This document shows positions 11,928 to 26,239 of a stretch of DNA of 44,114 nt, piece after piece (the first letter of the stretch is position 1; the number at the start of each line of letters is the position of its first letter). The stretch is from SAR86 cluster bacterium (GTDB lineage Bacteria > Pseudomonadota > Gammaproteobacteria > Magnimaribacterales > D2472), in the NCBI GenBank assembly GCA_018607365.1, contig JABBBT010000058.1, positions 1 through 44,114 of the forward strand. The letters run 5' to 3'. The notes below the pieces were generated by a model, which saw only the letters and a list, made by a program, of their open reading frames with translations, had not been told where the DNA came from and did no database searches. Made by a program: the position numbers and the translations under genes.

Positions 11928-12250
11928 TCCTTGTTATTGATTGGCTGAATATTCAAAGGGAATGGGCTGACTTGGCCTTTATTTTTTTTGATCTTCGATT
12001 CTCCAGATTCATTAACCTCATCAATGCGGATAATTGCATTCATAGGTATATAACTTCTCTGGACTTCTGAAAATTCATTTTTAAGTTTTTCTGATGTTGG
12101 GTTTACAACTAGTTGTTTATCTTTTTTGAAGATATAATCTTCGACCTCAATGAATCCATACATCTCACTTTGATAAATCTGTTTTGCAAAAACCTCGTAG
12201 ATCTCACCAAGCTGGATAAAAATTATCTTGTAAACGCTATTTATTTTCAT
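11924..12250 (-). CDS. DUF1820 family protein
   Basis: Small cytoplasmic protein of unknown function conserved in gammaproteobacteria. The 108 residues contain the family pattern: YKIIFIQLGEIYEVFAKQIYQSE described by position (residues 7-29), then YGFIEVEDYIF, LVVNPTSEKLKNEF, and SYIPMNAIIRIDEV near residue 67. The Lys-rich C-terminus is variable. It is divergent from miaB, with only 13 bp between start codons, so the promoters of both must overlap coding sequence. I recall members of this family next to miaB in other gammaproteobacteria, but the role is unknown. Confidence 0.85.
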   Translation of the reverse strand: MKINSVYKIIFIQLGEIYEVFAKQIYQSEMYGFIEVEDYIFKKDKQLVVNPTSEKLKNEFSEVQRSYIPMNAIIRIDEVNESGESKIKKNKGQVSPFPLNIQPINNKD

Positions 12251-14596: not shown

Positions 14597-15046
14597 ATGA
14601 CTCTAGATGTATTGATTGATGATGAATTCCTAATATCTGAGGATTTAATAGAAAGCCTGAAGGCTGCTGCTGACTTAACTCTAAGCGAGGAAAGTTCTAT
14701 CAATAGTATAGTAAATCTTAGGATTCTTAGTGATATTGAAATGCAGCAACTTAACAAAGAATTTAGAAATAAAAATAGAACCACTAATGTTCTATCCTTC
14801 ACAAACAATGATCTATCTAGAGAACTAACTAATAATATTGGTGATATAGCTATAAGTTATGACTACGTATCAAGTGAAGCCAAAGAAAATGGAAAATCTT
14901 TTTCTGACCATATCATTCACATGTTGGTTCATGGGATATATCATATATTAGGATATGATCATGAAGATAATATCTCAGCAGAGATTATGGAATCAAAAGA
15001 GATAGACATACTTGCAAAATTAAACATAGATAACCCTTATAACTAA
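14597..15046 (+). CDS. ybeY: endoribonuclease YbeY
   Basis: Zinc-dependent endoribonuclease for 16S rRNA 3'-end maturation and 70S quality control. The 149 residues carry the metal site H112xxxH116xxxxxH122 in HGIYHILGYDH and the upstream motif TNVLSF (63-68) with the conserved GDIAIS strand. Length is typical. It starts two bases after ybeZ and ends directly against corC, consistent with one polycistronic message. Confidence 0.96.
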   Translation: MTLDVLIDDEFLISEDLIESLKAAADLTLSEESSINSIVNLRILSDIEMQQLNKEFRNKNRTTNVLSFTNNDLSRELTNNIGDIAISYDYVSSEAKENGKSFSDHIIHMLVHGIYHILGYDHEDNISAEIMESKEIDILAKLNIDNPYN

Positions 15047-15901
15047 ATGAATCAAAAATTAGATAGCGACGACAACCACCCTCCTTCGGGATTTTTTATC
15101 ACAATTAAAAAATTCTTTAAAAATCCATTTTTTATAAAAACACAATCAGTTTCTGAAGTAACAGACTTTCTTAGAGATGCAGCTGATTTAAATATTATTG
15201 ATAAAGAGGCTGAATCGATTGCTTCGAAGGCCATAAGATTAGGATCAATCACAGTTAAAGAAATTATGGTTCCCAAGGTTGATATGGTAACCATAAGTTC
15301 AGACATGAATACTGATGAAATAATTGAAAGAATTATAGAATCAGGTCATTCAAGATATCCTGTTTTAGGTGGTGATAGGGATGAGGTTAGTGGAATTTTG
15401 CTTGCAAAAGACATTCTTCCTAAACTTGTTGGAGAAAAGACTGATTTTGAACTTTTAGAGATGTTGAGAGAATCCAAGATAGTTCCTGAAACTAAAAAAG
15501 CTGATTCTTTGCTCGAAGAGTTCAAAAAGGATAGATCTCACTTAGCCATTGTTATAGATGAATACGGAACAATCTGCGGGCTTGTAACTATTGAAGACAT
15601 TCTTGAAGAGCTTGTAGGTGAAATAGAAGACGAACATGATGTAGATGAAGATGAGATTATAGAAAATATAGATGGTTCATTTTCAGCAGACCCAAAAGTA
15701 GAAATTGAAGAATTTACTCAATACTTTAGTTTAGAAATAGACCCGCTTGCTATAGATGCTGAAACTCTTGGCGGCTTAATTATTAATGAATTAGGTGTTC
15801 TTCCAAAGGTTGGGGATGTGGTGAGTATAGAAAATTTAAATATAAAAGTTACACATGCAGATGGAAGAAAAATTACCAAGGTTTTAATAACTAAAAATTG
15901 A
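15047..15901 (+). CDS. corC: CorC/YbeX family CBS-domain protein
   Basis: Cytoplasmic protein with two CBS domains (about residues 65-190) and a C-terminal CorC_HlyC domain (about 205-282). Linked to magnesium/cobalt efflux by older work and to ribosome maintenance through ybeX. Seen: KEIMVPKVDMVTIS, the ligand-loop stretch SGHSRYPVL, and VIDEYGTICGLVTIEDILEE (CBS2, quoted up to the family core). There is no membrane segment, so it is the soluble CorC form. Starts at the base after the ybeY stop; TGA shares a base with the lnt ATG. Confidence 0.92.
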   Translation: MNQKLDSDDNHPPSGFFITIKKFFKNPFFIKTQSVSEVTDFLRDAADLNIIDKEAESIASKAIRLGSITVKEIMVPKVDMVTISSDMNTDEIIERIIESGHSRYPVLGGDRDEVSGILLAKDILPKLVGEKTDFELLEMLRESKIVPETKKADSLLEEFKKDRSHLAIVIDEYGTICGLVTIEDILEELVGEIEDEHDVDEDEIIENIDGSFSADPKVEIEEFTQYFSLEIDPLAIDAETLGGLIINELGVLPKVGDVVSIENLNIKVTHADGRKITKVLITKN

Positions 15902-17370
15902 TGAAACTAAAGGAGTATGTAACCCCATTTTTTTTTGGTTTCATTGGGATATTTGCATTTGCGCCCTTCTCTCTTAAGCCTCTAATAATTCTCTCATATG
16001 CCTATTTAATAAAAGAATTGTCCTTTAAATCATCGTCTACTAGACAGCTAATAATGTGGTCAATTGGACACTGGGGATTTGGAATGTCTTGGTTAATAGT
16101 GAGTGTTTACTATTATGGAGAAACAAGCATAGCTGTATCATTAATAATATTTGTTTTACTAATATTAATCTTAACTTTATTTTTTTCGCTACCATTACTT
16201 GTTATCAGAACAAATTTTTTTCAGGATCTCAGGTACTCTAGCTTAAAATATATATTGCTAGTTATTAGTATATTTGTGTTAAACGAATGGAGTATGTACT
16301 ACTTACTTAATGGTGTTCCTTGGCTTATTCCAGGCGTTGTATTCCTGGATACATTTACACAAAATATCTATCCCTTATTAGGAGTTGCTGGCGCATCTAT
16401 AATTATTTATCTTTGCTCTACCCTTCTTGCCATAAGTTGGCATAAAAATAAAAAAAATCTATTTATTTTATGTTTGATAAGCCTTGTATTTTTTATACCA
16501 AATTTTTACAAAAGAGTCTCTGTTGGCGAGCAGATAAATATCTCCATAGTTCAGCCATCATCCGACCCCTTTTTGAAATATACAAATAACTATAAATTAG
16601 AAATAGAAGCCAATTTAAAAGAATTAATAAATTTAGCATCCGCATCATCAAGCTTAATAGTATTGCCCGAAGCCGAACTCCCATACGTATATAAAAGTGC
16701 TAACTTTAAAAAATTTGAAAGTGATATAAATACTGATCAAACGATTATTGGAGGCGTTTGGCATCTAAGTGAGGGTAATTTATACAATTCAATGGTAAAT
16801 TTTCAATCACAGCAAATATATAACAAGATTCACTTAGTTCCTTTTGGTGAATATATTCCCTTCATATCCTCTTTAAGGGGTCTGATTTCATTCTTTGATA
16901 TGCCAATGTCAGATGTATTTAAAGGTAAATCAAATCAAAATCCAATGGTATTTGATACCCAATCTCTAAAAAAGATGGCTCCATTGATATGTTTTGATAT
17001 TGCATTTGGAAATACCGTTAGAAAAAGCAACATAAGTTCATTATTTATGGTCAATATAAGCAATGATACATGGTTTGGAAAATCCATAGGACCATATCAA
17101 CATCTTGATATTGCCAGAGTAAGAACAATAGAAAATAATAAGTGGATGATTAGAGCAACTAATGATGGCTTTTCTGCATTGATAGATAATAATGGAACAA
17201 TTGTTGATAAATTAGAAAAAGGAGTAACTGACGTCCTTGATGGCTCAATAATGCTGCTTGATAAAAGAACAATCTATAGTCAATATGGCTACTACCTGCC
17301 GTATTTACTGGCTCTCTTCATATTATTAATTTCAGTTATAATAAGATTATGTTTAAAAAAGCAATATTAG
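15901..17370 (+). CDS. lnt: apolipoprotein N-acyltransferase
   Basis: Inner-membrane enzyme that adds the third acyl chain to lipoproteins. The 489 residues have a hydrophobic N-terminal half of about six spans and a periplasmic nitrilase-like domain with the predicted catalytic triad E257 (LPEAELPY), K309 (KIHLVPFGEYIP) and C364 (CFDIAF); then one C-terminal span. The upstream in-frame TTG at 15898 is ignored: ATG 15901 overlaps the corC stop by one base (TGATG). Place after corC is canonical in gammaproteobacteria. Confidence 0.95.
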   Translation: MKLKEYVTPFFFGFIGIFAFAPFSLKPLIILSYAYLIKELSFKSSSTRQLIMWSIGHWGFGMSWLIVSVYYYGETSIAVSLIIFVLLILILTLFFSLPLLVIRTNFFQDLRYSSLKYILLVISIFVLNEWSMYYLLNGVPWLIPGVVFLDTFTQNIYPLLGVAGASIIIYLCSTLLAISWHKNKKNLFILCLISLVFFIPNFYKRVSVGEQINISIVQPSSDPFLKYTNNYKLEIEANLKELINLASASSSLIVLPEAELPYVYKSANFKKFESDINTDQTIIGGVWHLSEGNLYNSMVNFQSQQIYNKIHLVPFGEYIPFISSLRGLISFFDMPMSDVFKGKSNQNPMVFDTQSLKKMAPLICFDIAFGNTVRKSNISSLFMVNISNDTWFGKSIGPYQHLDIARVRTIENNKWMIRATNDGFSALIDNNGTIVDKLEKGVTDVLDGSIMLLDKRTIYSQYGYYLPYLLALFILLISVIIRLCLKKQY

Positions 17371-17885
17371 TTATATTTATGTCTTTCAACATTTTTGCTG
17401 AGAACAATCTAACTATTGAGATTGATATTTCAAAACAAAGACTTTTTTTATTAGATAATATGGAAATTGTTAGATCGTATCCTATATCCTCCTCTAAATA
17501 TGGAGAAGGCAGTACTCAAAACTCCTTTAAAACACCTTTAGGTAATCATGTTATTAAAGAGATGATAGGAAACAATGCTATTAAAAATACCATTTTTACA
17601 TCTAGAATAAATACTAAGAGACAGGCTGAGATCATCCATGATGAGGCTAAATCAGATAATGACTATGTTACAACAAGAATAATGTGGTTAGATGGTCAGG
17701 AAGAGGGCAAAAATAAAGGGAAGGGCGTTGATTCTTACGAAAGGTATATCTATATTCATGGGACGCATGAAGAGGGCCTAATTGGACAAAAAGCATCACA
17801 TGGATGCATTAGAATGTTTAACTCTGATGTTATTGAACTCTTTAATGATGTAAAAAAAGGGACAAAAGTCTATATTAAAGCCTAA
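17349..17885 (+). CDS. L,D-transpeptidase (YkuD domain), secreted
   Basis: Periplasmic enzyme of the ErfK/YbiS/YkuD family that forms or edits 3-3 peptidoglycan crosslinks or attaches lipoprotein. The 178 residues begin with a signal peptide (MFKKAILVIFMSFNIFAEN). The YkuD domain covers the rest and ends in the catalytic motif SHGCIRM (H151, C153, R155), with the upstream HGTH (137-140). No LysM or other binding domain is present. It overlaps lnt by 22 nt, so it is the distal gene of that operon, an envelope-related addition to the conserved block. Confidence 0.93.
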   Translation: MFKKAILVIFMSFNIFAENNLTIEIDISKQRLFLLDNMEIVRSYPISSSKYGEGSTQNSFKTPLGNHVIKEMIGNNAIKNTIFTSRINTKRQAEIIHDEAKSDNDYVTTRIMWLDGQEEGKNKGKGVDSYERYIYIHGTHEEGLIGQKASHGCIRMFNSDVIELFNDVKKGTKVYIKA

Positions 17886-17899
17886 TATCCCCTATAAAT

Positions 17900-20080
17900 T
17901 TAAAAATTATTAGCAACAGACGACATCGCAAAATTCAATTTTTCTTTCCTATCCTCTATGGCAGGGGCATCACCAAGCTTTTCGCCATTATTTGCAAGCT
18001 TTATTAGCAGCTGACTAGGTTTATATACATCGCTACCTGTTTTTTCTGCATATTCTTCTAATTTTTTAACCACAACATCTAATCCCATTGCATTAGCGTG
18101 ATGCATTGGGCCGCCTCTCCATATTGGAAATCCGTAGCCGTTAATATAAACAACATCTAAATCAGCAGCTTTTTGTGCAACTCCCTCAGAAAGAATATCA
18201 GCACCTTCGTTAATTAATGCCAAAATACATCTCTCTACAATCTCAACATCGGATATATCTCTTCTAGTGAACCCATTCTCAGATGATATTTTTTCATATG
18301 TTTCTTCATTTTCAGGGGCAGGGTTTGGAGCTCTGGATCCTTCATTATAATTGTAATAGCCCTTTGCATTTTTTTGACCAAACCTATCATTATCACAAAG
18401 ACTATCTCCAATTTTTGCATGAAGTGGTGATTCTTTACCACCTAATTTTCTTGCTCTCCAACCAAGGTCTAACCCAACTAAATCCATCATCCTAAATGGA
18501 CCCATATTTAATCCAAATGACTCTAAAGCCTGATCAACTTGATGGGGAAGGGCGCCTTCTAAAAGTAGCATATTAGCCTGAGCTGTATATCCAAAGAGCA
18601 TTCTGTTTCCTATAAAGCCTGGAGCATTTAAAGAAACCACAGCGGTCTTTTTAATCTTCTTACCCACAGACATTATTGTGGCAAGTGTTTCGTTGGAAGT
18701 CTGCTCTCCTCTTACAACCTCAAGCAACCTCATAATGTTCGCTGGACTAAAAAAGTGAGTACCCACTACCAATTCAGGCCTACTAGTTACTGAAGCAATA
18801 GCATCTATATCTAAACCTGATGTGTTACTCGCAAGGATAGCTCCTGGCTTAACATGCTTATCTAAGGTTTTAAATATATCCATTTTTAGATCGAGGTTTT
18901 CATAAACAGCTTCTATTGCAATATCACAATCATGCAAATCTTTATAATCAAGACTTGAGCTAATTAATCCAAATACAGCATCTTTTTGCTCAGAAGTTAG
19001 CTTTCCTCTACCAACCATAAAGTCATAATTCTTTTCGATTACTGATATTCCTCTTTTTAAGTTATCTGCATCTTGGTCAATAATATGAACTGGAATTCCA
19101 GCATTTGCAAAACACATTGCTATACCACCACCCATTGTTCCTGAACCAATTATTCCTGCTTTTTTGATATCCATAACAGGAGTTTCTTTTGGGACATCTG
19201 CAATTTTAGATGCAGCTCTTTCGCCAAAGAATATATGAATCATTGCTTCACGTTGCGGGTGAAGAAGACATTCCATGAAATATTCTGCTTCTTTTTTAAG
19301 GCCTTCATCAAAATCATCACAATTTATAGCCGCTTCAACACATTTAATTATCTGACCAGGTGCAAATTGTCCTTTTCTTGTTTTGGCTGCCATAGCCTGC
19401 GCCTCTACTAAAACGTTCTCAGATCCTCTAGCTTCGATTACTTTGTCATTCATATTTCTAACAAGTGGGTGATCGCTAGTGTTTGCAGCCTTTTCTTTAA
19501 TAAAGGCTATTGAGTCTTCAATAATATTTTCTGAAATTGAGTCAATAATCCCAAGAGATAAAGCCTTTTTGGCAGGCACATGTGCTCCAGAAAGCATTAT
19601 TTTAAGCGCTTCAGCAGGCCCAGTAAGTCTAGGGAGTCTTTGAGTACCACCAGCACCAGGTAAAAGGCCTAAATGGACCTCTGGAAGCCCAACAAATGCG
19701 CTTGGAGAGGCTATCCTGTAGTTACAACATAATGCAGTCTCTAAACCACCTCCTAGTGCAAGGCCGTTAATTGCTGCTACCACAGGCTTAGAACAAAATT
19801 CAAGATTTTTAAAGACAGTATGAAGACCGTGGCCATCACCTTCTCCACCAAATTCAGAAATATCAGCCCCAGCAATAAAAGCTCTTCCTTTACCGGTTAC
19901 AACCACGCCAACAACATTAGTGTCTGCTTCGGCATTAGCTATGCCTTCAAATAAGCCTGCTCTAACACCATCACTTAATGGATTTACTGGAGGATTATCT
20001 ACTGTTAATACGGCAACCCCATCCCTTACTTCATAATGAACTGTTCCTTTCAATTTTATCTCCGTTTTAAATTTAGACAT
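17900..20080 (-). CDS. bifunctional enoyl-CoA hydratase / 3-hydroxyacyl-CoA dehydrogenase (FadB/FadJ type)
   Basis: Two consecutive steps of fatty-acid beta-oxidation on one 726-residue chain. N-terminal crotonase domain: oxyanion-hole GGGLETAL with E114, and E134 in GLPEVHLGLLPGAGG. The NAD-binding dehydrogenase domain starts with AGIIGSGTMGGG (309-319); catalytic His lies in VGTHFFSPANIMRLLEVV; two C-terminal HAD domains follow. Domain order is as in FadB, FadJ and the peroxisomal bifunctional enzyme. No thiolase gene (fadA) is adjacent, unlike the usual fadBA operon. A palindrome 34 bp upstream of the ATG may be an operator. FadB and FadJ cannot be separated by eye. Confidence 0.93.
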   Translation of the reverse strand: MSKFKTEIKLKGTVHYEVRDGVAVLTVDNPPVNPLSDGVRAGLFEGIANAEADTNVVGVVVTGKGRAFIAGADISEFGGEGDGHGLHTVFKNLEFCSKPVVAAINGLALGGGLETALCCNYRIASPSAFVGLPEVHLGLLPGAGGTQRLPRLTGPAEALKIMLSGAHVPAKKALSLGIIDSISENIIEDSIAFIKEKAANTSDHPLVRNMNDKVIEARGSENVLVEAQAMAAKTRKGQFAPGQIIKCVEAAINCDDFDEGLKKEAEYFMECLLHPQREAMIHIFFGERAASKIADVPKETPVMDIKKAGIIGSGTMGGGIAMCFANAGIPVHIIDQDADNLKRGISVIEKNYDFMVGRGKLTSEQKDAVFGLISSSLDYKDLHDCDIAIEAVYENLDLKMDIFKTLDKHVKPGAILASNTSGLDIDAIASVTSRPELVVGTHFFSPANIMRLLEVVRGEQTSNETLATIMSVGKKIKKTAVVSLNAPGFIGNRMLFGYTAQANMLLLEGALPHQVDQALESFGLNMGPFRMMDLVGLDLGWRARKLGGKESPLHAKIGDSLCDNDRFGQKNAKGYYNYNEGSRAPNPAPENEETYEKISSENGFTRRDISDVEIVERCILALINEGADILSEGVAQKAADLDVVYINGYGFPIWRGGPMHHANAMGLDVVVKKLEEYAEKTGSDVYKPSQLLIKLANNGEKLGDAPAIEDRKEKLNFAMSSVANNF

Positions 20081-20111
20081 GCATTATACATAATATATAG
20101 CAGTATTAGAT

Positions 20112-20135
20112 GCGATTTCTTGCACAAGGAATCAC
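20112..20135. promoter_or_regulatory. imperfect palindrome upstream of the fadB-type gene, candidate operator
   Basis: GATTTCTTG CA CAAGGAATC (20114-20133) is an inverted repeat with nine-base arms and one mismatch; TG/CA extends the symmetry outside. It lies 34-53 bp upstream of the start codon of the beta-oxidation gene, where a repressor would act. Such size fits TetR-type fatty-acid regulators, but I do not recognise the sequence as a known FadR or PsrA site. Confidence 0.35.
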
Positions 20136-20172
20136 AATTATTAAATATATTAAAATATCTTTATAAAAAGTA

Positions 20173-20200
20173 TTGATAATTAATTATAAATATATATAAT
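20173..20200 (+). promoter_or_regulatory. sigma-70 promoter of the 20205 small RNA
   Basis: TTGATA (20173-20178) and TATAAT (20195-20200) are separated by 16 bp: a perfect -10 box and a -35 box with four of six consensus bases. It is the best promoter match I see in the window. Expected transcription start is 20205-20207, just before a structured, terminator-ended stretch. Confidence 0.65.
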
Positions 20201-20204
20201 AATG

Positions 20205-20282
20205 TGAGTCAGCACTCCTCTCCCCCTATTAGTTTGCTGACACTCTGAAACATATGGAGGGCTCAGTCCCTCCATTTTTATT
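20205..20282 (+). ncRNA. candidate structured small RNA or attenuated leader (~77 nt), family not recognised
   Basis: It starts at a near-consensus promoter and ends at a strong intrinsic terminator. Stem 1 pairs TCAGCA (20208-20213) with TGCTGA (20235-20240); a GAG/CTC extension is possible across a two-base bulge. Its 21-base loop is pyrimidine-rich, with CTCCTCTCCCCC at 20215-20226. A short A-rich linker leads to the terminator hairpin. The C-rich loop could bind Shine-Dalgarno sequences in trans, or pair with the GGAGGG arm of the terminator in cis (CTCTCC, 20218-20223). A 28-codon ORF begins 17 bases downstream. I cannot match it to a known Rfam family; no ligand is claimed. Confidence 0.6.
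20254..20279 (+). terminator. intrinsic terminator
   Basis: Perfect 8-bp stem ATGGAGGG/CCCTCCAT (20254-20261 with 20268-20275), six-base loop CTCAGT, then a T5 tract continuing as A-TT. It is the only textbook Rho-independent terminator found in the window. It ends the candidate small RNA and lies before the 28-codon ORF and the glutathione peroxidase-family gene. Confidence 0.82.
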
Positions 20283-20298
20283 AAATTTAAGGTTTTTT

Positions 20299-20385
20299 AT
20301 GAAAAAATATCAGGAAATATTTGAAACAGTCATTTTGGCTAGCTTTTTTGTAATATCGGTAATGGCTATAGCTCCAATAACTTAA
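20299..20385 (+). CDS. putative 28-residue single-span membrane peptide
   Basis: ATG 20299 to TAA 20385 encodes 28 residues: a charged start (MKKYQEIFET) and then one uninterrupted hydrophobic segment to the end. AAGG (20289-20292) lies six bases before the ATG. It fills the space between the terminator hairpin and the glutathione peroxidase-family gene, 20 bp upstream of it. It could be a real small membrane protein, a leader peptide for the downstream gene, or chance. Evidence is the ribosome binding site, the amphipathic-then-hydrophobic composition and the position only. Confidence 0.4.
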   Translation: MKKYQEIFETVILASFFVISVMAIAPIT

Positions 20386-20405
20386 TACTAATATATAATT
20401 ATTAT

Positions 20406-20930
20406 ATGAATAAATTTTATATATTTGGCTTATTGTTTTTTACACTAAATGCATTTTCTTGCTCAGATCTTCTGGACACTGACATGAGAGTTCTTGACTC
20501 CGCTGAGTCAAGAAACTTTTGCGAGTTTGAAGGAAAAGCTTTACTAGTTGTGAATGTTGCAAGTAGATGTGGTTACACTTACCAATATGCTGGCCTTCAA
20601 AAGTTGTATGAAAGCTACAAAGATGATGATTTTCTAGTAATTGGAATTCCATCTAGAGATTTTCTTCAAGAATACTCTGATGAAAGCGATGTTGCAGAAT
20701 TTTGTTCTACAGAATACGGTGTTGAATTTCCTATGTTCTCAACTGCTAAAGTCAAAGGAAAAAAAGCACACCCATTTTATAAAAAACTTATTGCAGAGTC
20801 AGGTTATACGCCCTCATGGAACTTTAATAAATACTTAATCTCAAAAGAGGGTAAGGTTGTATCCACATATGGATCAAAGGTAAAGCCTGATTCAAAAGAG
20901 CTCATATCAGCTATTGAAGACTTGCTGTAA
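20406..20930 (+). CDS. glutathione peroxidase family protein, exported
   Basis: Thiol peroxidase of the GPx fold, predicted periplasmic: an N-terminal signal sequence (MNKFYIFGLLFFTLNAFSC) precedes the domain. The 174 residues show the peroxidatic Cys in NVASRCGYT (C55), FPMFSTAKVKGKKAHPFY near 108, and the WNF motif (W138, N139). The usual catalytic Gln region (PCNQF in E. coli BtuE) reads PSRDF here, with Asp85 where Gln is expected, as in a bacterial PSNDF-type subgroup I recall. A TATAAT (20394-20399) sits so close to the ATG that a transcript from it would be nearly leaderless. Confidence 0.88.
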   Translation: MNKFYIFGLLFFTLNAFSCSDLLDTDMRVLDSAESRNFCEFEGKALLVVNVASRCGYTYQYAGLQKLYESYKDDDFLVIGIPSRDFLQEYSDESDVAEFCSTEYGVEFPMFSTAKVKGKKAHPFYKKLIAESGYTPSWNFNKYLISKEGKVVSTYGSKVKPDSKELISAIEDLL

Positions 20931-20935
20931 AATTA

Positions 20936-21574
20936 TTACTTAGAAACTAATACAGTTTTAGGTTTGTTTGCTGCAAATATTCCATTATCTACCACTCCAG
21001 GAATATTATTAATCAAAGCTTCCAGTGCAGCGGGGTTTGAAATATCCATATTAGAGATATCTAAAATATGATTACCTTGGTCTGTTATAAATCCAGTTCT
21101 ATATGTCGGTATTCCACCCATCGAGATTATTTTTCTTGCAACAAGGCTCCTACTTTCAGGTATCACCTCTATAGGCAGTGGAAAAGCTCCCAAGATATTA
21201 ACCATCTTTGACTGATCAACTATACATATAAACTCGTTAGAAGCAGAAGCTACTATCTTTTCTCTAGTATGTGCGCCACCACCACCTTTAATAAGACAAT
21301 TTTCAGGAGACACCTCATCTGCACCATCTATGTAATAAGCTATATCAATTACATCATTAAGGTTAAAGACTTCGATCCCATTTTCATTTAATAATATTGA
21401 TGAAGCATCTGAGCTAGAAACAGCTCCAGCAAATTTGTGCCTATATTCCTTCAGTTGTTCTATAAAAAAATTAACTGTTGAACCGGTTCCAATGCCTAAG
21501 ATCATCTCTGGATGAAGATTATTTTTAATATATTCTATAGCTTGTTTAGCAACATTTATCTTTGAGCCACTCAT
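20936..21574 (-). CDS. rpiA: ribose-5-phosphate isomerase A
   Basis: Interconverts ribose-5-phosphate and ribulose-5-phosphate in the pentose phosphate pathway. The 212 residues show GIGTGSTVNFFIEQL near the start, VSSSDASSILL, DGADEV and KGGGGAHTREKIVA, all substrate-binding motifs with the catalytic Asp and Lys. ATG 21574 (MSGSKINVAKQ) is preferred to the in-frame TTG at 21589. Divergent from ilvA by 38 bp, as in Pseudomonas. Functionally it complements tkt at the left of the window. Confidence 0.96.
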   Translation of the reverse strand: MSGSKINVAKQAIEYIKNNLHPEMILGIGTGSTVNFFIEQLKEYRHKFAGAVSSSDASSILLNENGIEVFNLNDVIDIAYYIDGADEVSPENCLIKGGGGAHTREKIVASASNEFICIVDQSKMVNILGAFPLPIEVIPESRSLVARKIISMGGIPTYRTGFITDQGNHILDISNMDISNPAALEALINNIPGVVDNGIFAANKPKTVLVSK

Positions 21575-21612
21575 AGAGTTATAATACAAGAAAATATAGG
21601 TAGTTAATTATT

Positions 21613-23154
21613 TTGAGACTAAAAATTAAAAAAACAGGTTCTTTTAAGAATTCCCAGAAGTACCTAAAACTTATTCCTGATGCATCTGTTTATGACGTAG
21701 CATTAAAATCACCTATAACATTTGCTCCAAATATTTCTTCAAAGCTGGGGAATAAAGTTTTCTTAAAAAGAGAGGATCTGCAGCCTATATTTTCTTTTAA
21801 AAACAGAGGAGCGTATAACAAGATTGTAAATTTAACGGATGCTGAAAAGAAGAGGGGAGTTATTGCTGCATCAGCAGGAAATCATGCTCAAGGAGTAGCC
21901 AGTGCATGTAAAAAACTAAAAATTAATTGCCTAATTGTTATGCCAATAACAACTCCAGAAATAAAAATAAAAGATGTAAAAAGATTTGGAGCCAAAATAC
22001 TCCAGCATGGGGACAATGTAGATGCAGCTTTAAAAGAGGCACTGTCTATTGCAAAGAAAAAAAAATTGTCTTTTGTTCATCCTTTTGACGACCCTCTAAC
22101 AATTGCTGGCCAAGGGACTATAGGTCAAGAAATTCTTGAAGATCAAAATCATTTTGATGTTGTTTTTGTTCCAGTGGGAGGAGGAGGTATTCTAGCTGGT
22201 GTGTCTGCCTGGATAGCACAGAATAATAAGAAAATAAAAATTGTTGGTGTTGAGGTTGAGGATTCTGCATGTCTTGCTGAGGCAGTAAAAGCTAATAAAA
22301 GAGTTACTTTAAAAGAAGTGGGCCTCTTTGCTGATGGAGTGGCGGTATCAAGGGTTGGAAAAAATAATTTTGATGTTATTAAAGAGTGCGTAGATGAAGT
22401 CATTACAGTTAGTGTTGATGAAGTCTGCACCGCAGTAAAAGATATCTTTGAAGATACAAGAGTTCTGTCAGAACCTGCTGGGGCATTAGCACTTGCAGGG
22501 TTAAAAGCCTACGCAAGAAAAGTTAAAAATAAAAAACTTATTGCTATAAGTTCTGGCGCTAATGTAAATTTCCAAAGACTTAATTTTATTGTTGAGCGAT
22601 CAGAGATTGGTGAAAATAGAGAAAAAATATTAAGTATCAAAATCCCAGAGATACCTGGAAGTTTTCTTAAGCTCTCAAGGATGTTTGGCAGCTCTCAAGT
22701 TACAGAGTTTAACTACAGGAAATCTAGCTTAAGTGATGCATATGTTTTAGTTGGTGTTAGAACTAAAACTGAAAAATCATTTGAAACCTTAAAGTCCAAA
22801 TTAAAAAAAGCAGGCTTCAAATTTAGCGACTTTACTCGAAATGAAATATCCAATGATCATCTAAGACATATGGTTGGTGGCAGGAATAGTGACTCAGACT
22901 CTCATAACAATGAAAGAATATTTAGGGGAGAGTTTCCTGAGAAGCCAGGTGCGCTGTTAAATTTTCTAGAGAAATTTGGAAATAAATGGAATATTTCCTT
23001 ATTTCATTACAGGAATCTAGGCTCAGCTTTTGGAAAGATATTAATTGGCATCGAGAGTAAGGATAAAGATAAGCTAATAAATCATTTAAATAAGTCAGGA
23101 ACTATTTTTACAGAAGAAACCTCCAACAAGGCATACAAAGATTTTTTAAAATAA
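21613..23154 (+). CDS. ilvA: threonine ammonia-lyase (biosynthetic threonine deaminase)
   Basis: PLP enzyme converting threonine to 2-oxobutanoate, the first committed step to isoleucine. The 513 residues show the PLP-lysine motif SFKNRGAYNK (K63), the SAGNHAQGVA loop, the phosphate-binding GGGGILAG and two C-terminal ACT-like regulatory domains (from about residue 330), so it is the allosteric biosynthetic form. The start is TTG (21613-21615); no ATG lies between it and the conserved DASVYDVA segment, and the spacer to rpiA is only 38 bp. Confidence 0.96.
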   Translation: MRLKIKKTGSFKNSQKYLKLIPDASVYDVALKSPITFAPNISSKLGNKVFLKREDLQPIFSFKNRGAYNKIVNLTDAEKKRGVIAASAGNHAQGVASACKKLKINCLIVMPITTPEIKIKDVKRFGAKILQHGDNVDAALKEALSIAKKKKLSFVHPFDDPLTIAGQGTIGQEILEDQNHFDVVFVPVGGGGILAGVSAWIAQNNKKIKIVGVEVEDSACLAEAVKANKRVTLKEVGLFADGVAVSRVGKNNFDVIKECVDEVITVSVDEVCTAVKDIFEDTRVLSEPAGALALAGLKAYARKVKNKKLIAISSGANVNFQRLNFIVERSEIGENREKILSIKIPEIPGSFLKLSRMFGSSQVTEFNYRKSSLSDAYVLVGVRTKTEKSFETLKSKLKKAGFKFSDFTRNEISNDHLRHMVGGRNSDSDSHNNERIFRGEFPEKPGALLNFLEKFGNKWNISLFHYRNLGSAFGKILIGIESKDKDKLINHLNKSGTIFTEETSNKAYKDFLK

Positions 23155-23158
23155 AAGA

Positions 23159-25444
23159 TTAATACTTTAATCTAAATTTAATTGAAAAAAGCTCATCGCT
23201 AGGATTTTCCCATGGTTCTTTGAACAACTCGGATTGAGATCTATCGTCTTCCTCGTCGTAAATTCTCCCACCTTTAGAATAGACTAAAAATAGATATGAC
23301 AAAGGAGCGAGCTCATATTTATATCTAATTTGGAACGAAGCTACGCCAGTATTGAACTCATTAACAACATTATTTCCTTTATAAAGGTATCCATTAGCAT
23401 CTGAAAAAATACTAATAGGATTTTTTGCTTTCAAAGCAACAAATTGACTCTTAAGTCTGATCTCATGTTTATTATTTCTAAACCAATTTAGATCAAAAGA
23501 TAAGGTATCTTGTCTTGAATCATATGAGGCAAGATTATTATTATCCTGCCATATCAGCCATTCATTTTCCTTTCTTATCCTATATTGCGCATTAATTCTT
23601 AAGTTATCATTTGGAAATATTGAACCTGCTATCTTGTAAAACTTTCGACCATACCCATTCGAATCCCACTGATTATCTTTCTCTCCCTTAAAGAAGCTAA
23701 CTCTCCAGTCATATGTCCAGAATGAATAGTTCTTTGCCTCAAAGTCTGCTGTAATACCTATTCTTCTTTTTGATTTGATAAAAGGATAGGCTTCATTTTT
23801 TCTTGTGATAGTTGTATTTTTCCCAGAAGATCTAAAATTAAAATCTAATTGAAATTTAGAGTTGTCCTTAAAACTAAAAGAATTTTTTTGATCTATGCCT
23901 ATTGGATTTGAATTACCAGTTGTGTCAGCATCATAATTTAGGTCAATTCCATAATCTATTTGTTTTAATATCGAGCTATTATCAAATTCATTTATTTTTT
24001 TATTTCCTCCAATACCAGCATGAATCCAGTCCCTTCTTTGCAGATAACCAAAGTCATTCAACTCGAAGTCGTCTTCAAAATAAAGAAGGCTTCCACTTAT
24101 GTTAGATAGTTTATTTGGAAGATATGTAAACTGAGCCCTATACCCAAGCCCATTTTTACCATTTTTTTCTGAGGCTAACAGGTCTGAATATGTAATTAAT
24201 TTTTTTGAACGAATATTGACGTAATCAATAACATTGACTGTTGATGATTCGCCTGTCATTTCATTCTCAACATTCGTTACCATGAAGCCCAACGTTTTAT
24301 TTCCAAGCTTTGTTCTGGATCGAAGAGCATAATAGTCTCTTCCAGCTGAAAAGGCTTCATCAGCCTCACTTGCTACGAATACTCCAAATTCATTATTATT
24401 ACTTTTTTGAGTAAGTCTTAATGCAAAATCAATATCAGAATAGTTTTTTTTAGCTGCCTCGCAACCGTCTTCATTACTTTCTTCTGAGCAATTATAGCTG
24501 GGAGCAGCTCCAATCCTCCGCGTGTTTATAACCGAGTATCTATCATAATTACTAATATTAAACAGTGATTGGTTTTCATTGAAAAATGCTCTTTTTTCTG
24601 AGTAAAAAGTTTCTTGAGCAGAAAAGTTAATAACCACATCGTCACTCTCAGCTTGCCCGAAATCTGGATTGATAGCTAGATTTATTTGACGACCTTTTCC
24701 AGTGCTATAAAAGATTTCAGCCCCAATATCTGATCTTTCTTGGTTTGTAACTGAATTTTTATTTGAAGATATATATGGAAAAAAAGTTAGCTTAGATTTT
24801 GTATAGTTTTGTATTTCTAGGCTATCTAACTCTTGAAAGTAGTCATTTCTACTAGCCATTGTTCCGGCACTGCTCACCCATGACTGATTTTCGGCACTAT
24901 AACGTAATGCGGTGTAATTAATTTTTCTTATATCGCTATCAGGCTGTCTCATTAACGTTACATCCCAAGGAATAAAAAACTCAGAGATCCAATACCCGTC
25001 AAATTTTTGTGTTTTTGCAATCCAATTTCCATCCCAGTCTGTCTTAAAGTCTCCTGCTTGCGTTTTTATGGCATCGAAAAGCGAGTCCCCAAGATTTATA
25101 GCAAGAATGAAAGCTTTGTTGCCATCACCATCAAAGTCTATATTTATAGAGTTTTTATCGCTAAGTGAATTTATTTGATCTCTAAGCGTCTTTCTGGAGA
25201 ACATAGAATCATTACTTTGAAAATTCTTAAATCCAACATATATACCATCCTTATTTGAGAAAATTAAAGCCGTTGTAAGAAGTTCATTTTTCTTAAGAGT
25301 GAAAGGAGATGTTTCGTAAAAATCTGTAATTTCAAATGCATTATTCCACTCAGGCTCATCAAGAGAGCCATCAATAACAATTGAGTTTGACCAAATCAGC
25401 GTGGAGGCAAGTAAAAGCGATAATGAGGCTAAAGTTATTTTCAT
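23159..25444 (-). CDS. DUF5916-type outer-membrane protein with N-terminal CBM9-like domain
   Basis: 761 residues with a signal peptide (first ~19). Residues about 20-210 look like the family 9 carbohydrate-binding-like fold (IDGSLDEPEWNNA, FFIPWDVTLMRQ). The remainder resembles DUF5916, including FSAQETFYSEKRAFFNENQ, followed by alternating polar/hydrophobic strands typical of a beta-barrel. The chain ends in an aromatic residue (KFRLKY), as outer-membrane barrels do. Function is unknown; the usual proposal is binding or uptake of a polymer at the surface. It is isolated, convergent with ilvA (4 bp) and upstream of no clear partner. Function confidence is low, architecture fair. Confidence 0.75.
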   Translation of the reverse strand: MKITLASLSLLLASTLIWSNSIVIDGSLDEPEWNNAFEITDFYETSPFTLKKNELLTTALIFSNKDGIYVGFKNFQSNDSMFSRKTLRDQINSLSDKNSINIDFDGDGNKAFILAINLGDSLFDAIKTQAGDFKTDWDGNWIAKTQKFDGYWISEFFIPWDVTLMRQPDSDIRKINYTALRYSAENQSWVSSAGTMASRNDYFQELDSLEIQNYTKSKLTFFPYISSNKNSVTNQERSDIGAEIFYSTGKGRQINLAINPDFGQAESDDVVINFSAQETFYSEKRAFFNENQSLFNISNYDRYSVINTRRIGAAPSYNCSEESNEDGCEAAKKNYSDIDFALRLTQKSNNNEFGVFVASEADEAFSAGRDYYALRSRTKLGNKTLGFMVTNVENEMTGESSTVNVIDYVNIRSKKLITYSDLLASEKNGKNGLGYRAQFTYLPNKLSNISGSLLYFEDDFELNDFGYLQRRDWIHAGIGGNKKINEFDNSSILKQIDYGIDLNYDADTTGNSNPIGIDQKNSFSFKDNSKFQLDFNFRSSGKNTTITRKNEAYPFIKSKRRIGITADFEAKNYSFWTYDWRVSFFKGEKDNQWDSNGYGRKFYKIAGSIFPNDNLRINAQYRIRKENEWLIWQDNNNLASYDSRQDTLSFDLNWFRNNKHEIRLKSQFVALKAKNPISIFSDANGYLYKGNNVVNEFNTGVASFQIRYKYELAPLSYLFLVYSKGGRIYDEEDDRSQSELFKEPWENPSDELFSIKFRLKY

Positions 25445-26046: not shown

Positions 26047-26073
26047 AAATTGTGCCGAGGCTAACAAACCAAA

Positions 26074-26232
26074 TCACCGCCATGTGTTATACCTGAACCG
26101 AAGGGTCAGGTGGTGAATTTCATAACAAATCAGGCTTCCCTTTAAAGGTACTGCGCAACAATGCTAGAGGAATATCACCTATTTAATTGTATCGGTTCAA
26201 ATTTATTAACACATTAGCGTATGAACCAGAAT
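26074..26232 (-). ncRNA. ssrS: 6S RNA
   Basis: The only unfilled space between zapA and the folate ligase gene, the conserved site of ssrS. The reverse strand shows a closing stem, CGC..ATGTGTT (near 26205-26219) with AACACAT..GCG (near 26076-26086), and a central region with AAGCCTG as in E. coli 6S. On the 3' arm TTCACC is followed by the hairpin ACCTGA/TCAGGT with loop CCCTTCGGT, equivalent to the E. coli 3' internal hairpin. It binds the sigma-70 holoenzyme as a promoter mimic. About 159 nt, shorter than the 184 nt of E. coli. The ends are estimates. Confidence 0.88.
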
Positions 26233-26239
26233 GCAGTTA

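Follow-up and report, generated by a model that had tools for sequence, protein, structure and literature searches.

A conserved small RNA of SAR86 bacteria with a C-rich loop and a promoter shared with a cupredoxin gene

What is encoded in the A+T-rich gap upstream of the glutathione peroxidase-family gene (gpx) of a SAR86 cluster bacterium, and what could its product do? The gap lies around position 20,200 of contig JABBBT010000058.1, a stretch of 44,114 nucleotides that was analyzed at its full length and is referred to here as the window; its parent assembly (GCA_018607365.1) is 1.18 Mb and 89% complete. SAR86 rank with the most numerous surface-ocean bacteria that have not, or only barely, been cultured. 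A sequence-only reading of the window had placed in this gap an unrecognized small RNA (sRNA) with its own promoter and terminator. Comparative sequence analysis confirms that positions 20206 to 20280 hold a real, previously unlisted sRNA that is conserved in dozens of SAR86 species. We further propose, as a moderately probable reading, that it is a SAR86-specific, Hfq-independent sRNA that acts in trans through an anti-Shine-Dalgarno (anti-SD) loop, lowers the translation of its targets, and shares its promoter with a cupredoxin gene.

The predicted RNA is about 75 nt long and lies on the forward strand, with a 5′ end at about 20206 and a 3′ end at about 20279 as placed by the −10 element and the terminator, and the covariance model R1 matches the window at 20204-20281 with 86.1 bits. 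The near-consensus promoter is present as had been read, with a sigma70-type −35 element TTGATA at 20173-20178, a 16-nt spacer, and a −10 element TATAAT at 20195-20200; it has 11 of 12 matches and is the top-scoring of 27 promoter-like sites in a scan of 15000-25000. Such sites are not enriched there as a class (27 versus 41 in shuffles), so that in A+T-rich sequence this site by itself is weak proof. Stem-loop 1 (20208-20241, forward strand) pairs GTCAGCA (20208-20214) with TGCTGAC (20235-20241) in 7 bp, leaving a C-rich loop of 20 nt, not the 21 first counted. The loop core CTCCTCTCCCCCTAT (20215-20229, forward strand) comprises the highest-information unpaired columns and is the candidate anti-SD seed. 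A hairpin scan places the intrinsic terminator, ATGGAGGG-CTCAGT-CCCTCCAT TTTT, at 20254-20279 on the same strand; 20254-20261 pairs with 20268-20275 through 8 pairs followed by TTTTATT, in agreement with the GC-rich terminator and T-tract described from the sequence. The single-sequence fold of a 77-nt RNA has a free energy of −21.9 kcal/mol, with z = −2.9 relative to shuffles. Intrinsic terminators had been thought invisible elsewhere in the window, which proved incorrect: three scans gave 40 terminator-like sites, exceeding shuffled sequence by a factor of 1.3 to 2, although the one at 20254-20279 has the most G-C pairs of them all. A search of 4227 Rfam families returned no match reaching its gathering threshold (best 17.8 bits versus 34), and the Spot 42 covariance model (RF00021) does not match the sRNA, so the description of the family as unrecognized stands.

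A promoter, a hairpin and a terminator could fall together by chance in an A+T-rich gap, where promoter-like sites are common, and it is covariation that refutes this explanation. An alignment of 86 distinct copies, fitted to the structure model and with counts that therefore lean toward it, has compensatory changes at 15 of 16 base pairs, compared with 8.5 in shuffles and no more than 6 in slid controls; compensatory cells number 124, compared with 18.8 and no more than 16, and 95.4% of all cells are paired. All seven pairs of stem 1 show compensatory changes, with 96.8% of cells paired, as do 8 of the 9 pairs of helix 2, the terminator. In an unfitted MAFFT alignment of 30 copies, double changes still affect 8 of 16 pairs and 14 cells (versus 2.3 and 2.8), and neither figure was reached in any of 500 shuffles.

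The covariance model, built from 30 copies, has matches in 68 of the 73 genomes of the window's SAR86 family (f1), and a DNA search recovers the element in 65 of the 73, both counted from the genome lists of the searches. In a second family (f4) a shorter version is located just 5′ of gpx, consisting of GTCAGTCTCTCCTCTCCCCC and then a GGGGCUUCGGCCCC hairpin; TCTCCCCC of the loop is also found there, and synteny with the downstream gpx is kept in both families. The sequence-only reading would have been refuted by a lack of stem conservation among relatives with the same neighboring genes; in relatives with the gpx synteny the stems are conserved and covary. Conservation together with covariation thus raises the element above chance, family-wide distribution and paralogous copies speak in the same direction, and a chance origin has a negligible probability. 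The locus has the features expected of bacterial intergenic sRNAs in general, namely a promoter and an intrinsic terminator of its own flanking a short non-coding stretch, and a secondary structure kept by compensatory change. Candidate homologs outside the SAR86 order were rejected, as class-wide model matches lack the C-rich loop and are chance terminators, and exact-loop matches from viral contigs or from different phyla are coincidental among the matches listed and checked (by model search or by eye). The gpx regions of a third family (f3), and most model matches in it, contain no homolog or terminators only.

The loop core CUCUCCCCCUAU hardly varies, and CTCCCC is near-invariant among 79 copies, whereas stem 1 occurs as GUCAGCA/UGCUGAC, ACCAACA/UGUUGGU, AUCGGCA/UGCCGAU, and GCUAGCA/UGCUAGC. 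A varying stem with a constant loop is what one would expect, at the sequence level, if the stem displays a functional single-stranded seed. The loop is exposed and pyrimidine-rich, is the most constant unpaired part of the RNA, and is complementary to Shine-Dalgarno (SD) regions; the interpretation as an sRNA with a loop resembling anti-SD loops is thereby supported, with the anti-SD function itself a prediction.

Does the RNA serve only the genes behind it? The gap is not without a further occupant, as had been supposed, since the terminator is followed by a conserved small open reading frame (ORF) at 20299-20385 (forward strand), which encodes 28 amino acids with one hydrophobic stretch, MKKYQEIFETVILASFFVISVMAIAPIT, and is found at the same place in relatives. 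A small ORF of 24-35 codons lies behind the hairpin in all 65 gpx-linked copies examined, and differences between copies are biased to codon position 3. It matched no Pfam or NCBIfam family and may define a previously unrecognized family of small SAR86 membrane proteins. Next comes the syntenic gpx (20406-20930, forward strand; PF00255, E 2.6e-26), and on the other side of the gap a fadB-like gene for a multifunctional enoyl-CoA hydratase / 3-hydroxyacyl-CoA dehydrogenase (17900-20080, reverse strand; PF00378, PF02737, and PF00725) is transcribed divergently.

This arrangement raises the alternative that the element is mainly a cis-acting leader, either an attenuator or a 5′ element in the mRNA of a small ORF/gpx operon, with a terminator switched by an alternative structure in which the C-rich loop pairs with GGAGGG of the terminator arm; loop and arm are indeed complementary by inspection. 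The small ORF starts about 20 nt past the terminator hairpin in the window and 11-29 nt past it in nearly all gpx copies, a distance that excludes another promoter. The T-tract is weak in several genera, with no more than four T in ten in 12 of the 65 gpx-linked copies, and the maintenance of gpx synteny in two families also suits a leader. However, the window's own terminator is strong, and 14 of 79 distinct copies are located away from gpx. Most of these have a cupredoxin gene on one side and, on the other, sbcB (identified by eye, exonuclease I), toward which they converge. The siblings have the same loop and stem and better T-tracts, and are followed by neither the small ORF nor gpx, which argues that the RNA is an independent unit and not merely a gpx leader. 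The window's genome is one of many with a second, free-standing copy beside sbcB, in its case at G000:C51:28082-28149 with the stem GCUAGCA/UGCUAGU and the loop GUCUCCCCCCUAUUAG; a third copy lies at another place in at least one genome (G015), and several genera have two or more sibling copies per genome. We consider a mainly cis-acting role unlikely. The absence of space for a separate promoter, together with the poor T-tract in several genera, nonetheless leads us to infer partial readthrough, by which the gpx-locus sRNA would double as the leader of the small membrane protein. A dedicated short transcript, as originally envisaged, is therefore an incomplete description, because at the gpx locus the terminator has the promoter on one side and a conserved small ORF on the other.

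What drives these copies? Column conservation over the 79 copies reaches well past the −35 element and, with a pattern scan, defines a composite promoter, TTATAA-N4-TATTGATA-N6-TATAA-N2-ATNTATAATA, at 20161-20201 (forward strand), in which the extra conserved elements are TTATAA at 20161-20166 and again at 20185-20190. With up to three mismatches allowed, the 41-bp pattern is present in 40 of 61 genomes, with one to three sites in each matching genome, and the reversed-pattern control has no match across the 61. The sites precede the gpx-locus sRNA, most sibling copies, and a cupredoxin gene or operon, and this 41-bp composite promoter common to the sRNA and cupredoxin is newly described here. 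The cupredoxin, a copper-dependent carrier of electrons, is pseudoazurin-type and belongs to the plastocyanin/azurin family (PF00127), as scanned with a query that joins the N-terminus of one cupredoxin to the body of another and so represents the family, not a single gene. The promoter is immediately 5′ of cupredoxin in genera g2 and g5, with a leader that is nearly nil in g5, and is separated from it by a membrane ORF of about 60 codons in genera g1 and g8. In g5 the −10 element is very near the cupredoxin start codon, and the mRNA may be leaderless. The window's own genome has a cupredoxin-side site at G000:C51:31124-31164 on the minus strand (L384), and its sbcB-side sRNA copy has TTGATA...TACAAT only, without the remainder of the composite promoter. 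Sites L396-L401 likewise precede a cupredoxin gene or a small-membrane-ORF/cupredoxin operon. Two matches (L402 and L403) precede other genes and may be of chance origin.

A Fur box was also considered for this region, as TTGATAATTAATTATAA comes close to a palindrome in the window, but relatives do not share the symmetry and the sequence is barely above control in its own genome (55 versus 43) and not enriched. Alignment by eye, with no Fur-box profile scored, shows a conserved element without the consistent inverted half-site of a canonical Fur box. Because the symmetry is not kept and there is no enrichment, the Fur box was rejected, and the conserved feature is the composite promoter. Fur itself (PF01475) is encoded in 20 of 21 genomes examined.

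How might such an RNA act? In the anti-SD mechanism that we propose, the composite promoter shared with the pseudoazurin-type cupredoxin gene would make the ~75-nt sRNA under one signal, and stem 1 would display a C-rich loop complementary to G-rich SD regions. The sRNA would then act in trans without Hfq and, by covering the ribosome-binding sites of its target mRNAs, make these less translated, while incomplete termination at the gpx locus would let transcripts enter the small membrane-protein ORF and possibly gpx. A search of 31 genomes of the order, of which 16 are at least 90% complete, detected no Hfq (PF17209), whereas its controls were positive in 5 of 14 genomes (E. coli and four others). 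The sRNA thus probably does not fall into the Hfq-dependent class, in which Hfq is encoded in the genome.

The target scan covered 457 genes in 444 kb, about 38% of the window's own genome. The best candidate, picked from a list of G-rich starts, is small72, a 72-codon membrane protein gene after pnp (assigned by eye from the upstream frame), whose 5′ untranslated region just before the AUG contains AAACCUAAUAGGGGGG in G000 (the window's genome, genus g1) and in G021 (g5), and AAACCAUAGGGGGA in G145 (g9). The window loop forms a 12-bp run with the G000 site, made of 11 Watson-Crick pairs and one G-U, and the G021 loop pairs over 13 bp with its own site. A loop from g9, taken from that genus and not from the sRNA of G145, pairs over 10 bp with the G145 site, and the g9 loop change UAUUAG to UAUGAU is in step with the target. 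The predicted pairing in three genera is suggestive, and if small72 is a target its leader should contain ...ACATAGGGGG in g7, ...TTTAGGGGG in g4, and ...AAATAGGGGG in g6 and g8. Homologs of small72 are also present on viral contigs (IMG/VR L562-L567), two of which are 88-92 kb.

Other candidate targets were set aside. The start of an aminoglycoside-phosphotransferase-like gene (G000:C33, L554, minus strand near 11988) has a 17-bp run with the loop and was rejected on two grounds: by eye, it overlaps the VDGG codons that end an upstream SDR-type gene, and 3 of 300 permuted loops reach 17; the match is probably a coincidence. The GcvT-like, ribE, TonB-receptor, and petB starts have G-rich SDs, and no conserved pairing beyond the SD was established for them.

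Several observations weigh against action on mRNAs. Loop-complementary starts at −20 kcal/mol or below number 5 among the 457 genes, compared with 2.2 ± 1.5 for permuted loops, which is no clear excess, and runs of at least 12 pairs are equally common with permuted loops (2 versus 2.3); any C-rich loop pairs with G-rich SD sites. The loop is moreover complementary to the 5′ arm of the sRNA's own terminator, and pairing within the molecule could account for some of its conservation. A very constant loop would also suit an RNA that acts on a protein and not on mRNAs, as a sponge or regulator, and the linker of gpx copies (CUCUGGA) contains a GGA motif, as does the terminator arm. However, the linker GGA is absent from the siblings and is GAA in the window itself, and the constant part is C-rich and is not the GGA motif; we give protein binding little credence.

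At its broadest, the anti-SD proposal would have one promoter run a miniature electron-carrier-switching regulon in SAR86 lacking Hfq, turning cupredoxin on and G-rich-SD membrane or respiratory mRNAs down via the sibling sRNAs, with the gpx copy also a small-protein leader, an extension that we regard as speculative and doubtful as a whole. The composite promoter pattern does define a testable regulon, and an sRNA family with siblings, a near-fixed seed, a shared promoter, and no detectable Hfq offers a clear way to study how streamlined marine bacteria regulate genes after transcription. No regulatory RNA of SAR86 was found in the literature searched. The window also has a 6S RNA (RF00013, 54.8 bits) at 26062-26235 on the minus strand, and no tRNAs.

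How does this RNA relate to known sRNAs? Spot 42 sits at the polA-engB locus in gammaproteobacteria, and in a single f3 genome (G092) a hairpin with the loop TTTCTCTCCCC, similar to that of the SAR86 sRNA, lies between polA and engB (L190:1501-1569, minus strand; a weak match of 27.2 bits), which is also the locus of ErsA in Pseudomonas. ErsA, however, is Hfq-linked, with a U-rich domain and three stem-loops, the copies of families f1 and f4 are at other loci, and there is no Rfam Spot_42 match. RepG of Helicobacter pylori acts in trans on an mRNA whose leader contains the targeted G-repeat (PMC8295292), and to that extent resembles the trans action on a G-rich leader site proposed here. CcsR1-4 of Rhodobacter sphaeroides are homologous copies co-expressed with a small protein gene and tied to stress and redox (PMC8307010), and share with the SAR86 sRNA the several copies and a small-protein partner; they are processed from the 3′ UTR (untranslated region) behind ccaF1 and bind Hfq, whereas the SAR86 sRNA is 5′ of the small ORF, has its own promoter and terminator, and comes from an order without detected Hfq. 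A likeness in mode, drawn from descriptions and not from sequence, is to the Neisseria siblings NmsRA and NmsRB, multi-copy sRNAs with a UC-rich loop and linker that show partial complementarity to target SD regions (PMC5362039); here too a genome can hold more than one homologous copy, and the loop is SD-complementary. NmsRA and NmsRB have three stem-loops, are arranged in tandem, are RelA-linked, and overlap with Hfq-dependent regulation, in contrast to the two stem-loops, separate loci, different promoter, and undetected Hfq of SAR86. With a proposed NmsR-like mode, no Rfam match, and different loci and promoter, we class the SAR86 sRNA with the trans-acting C-rich-loop sRNAs as a probable separate family, unusual in the promoter that it shares with cupredoxin and in the apparent absence of Hfq.
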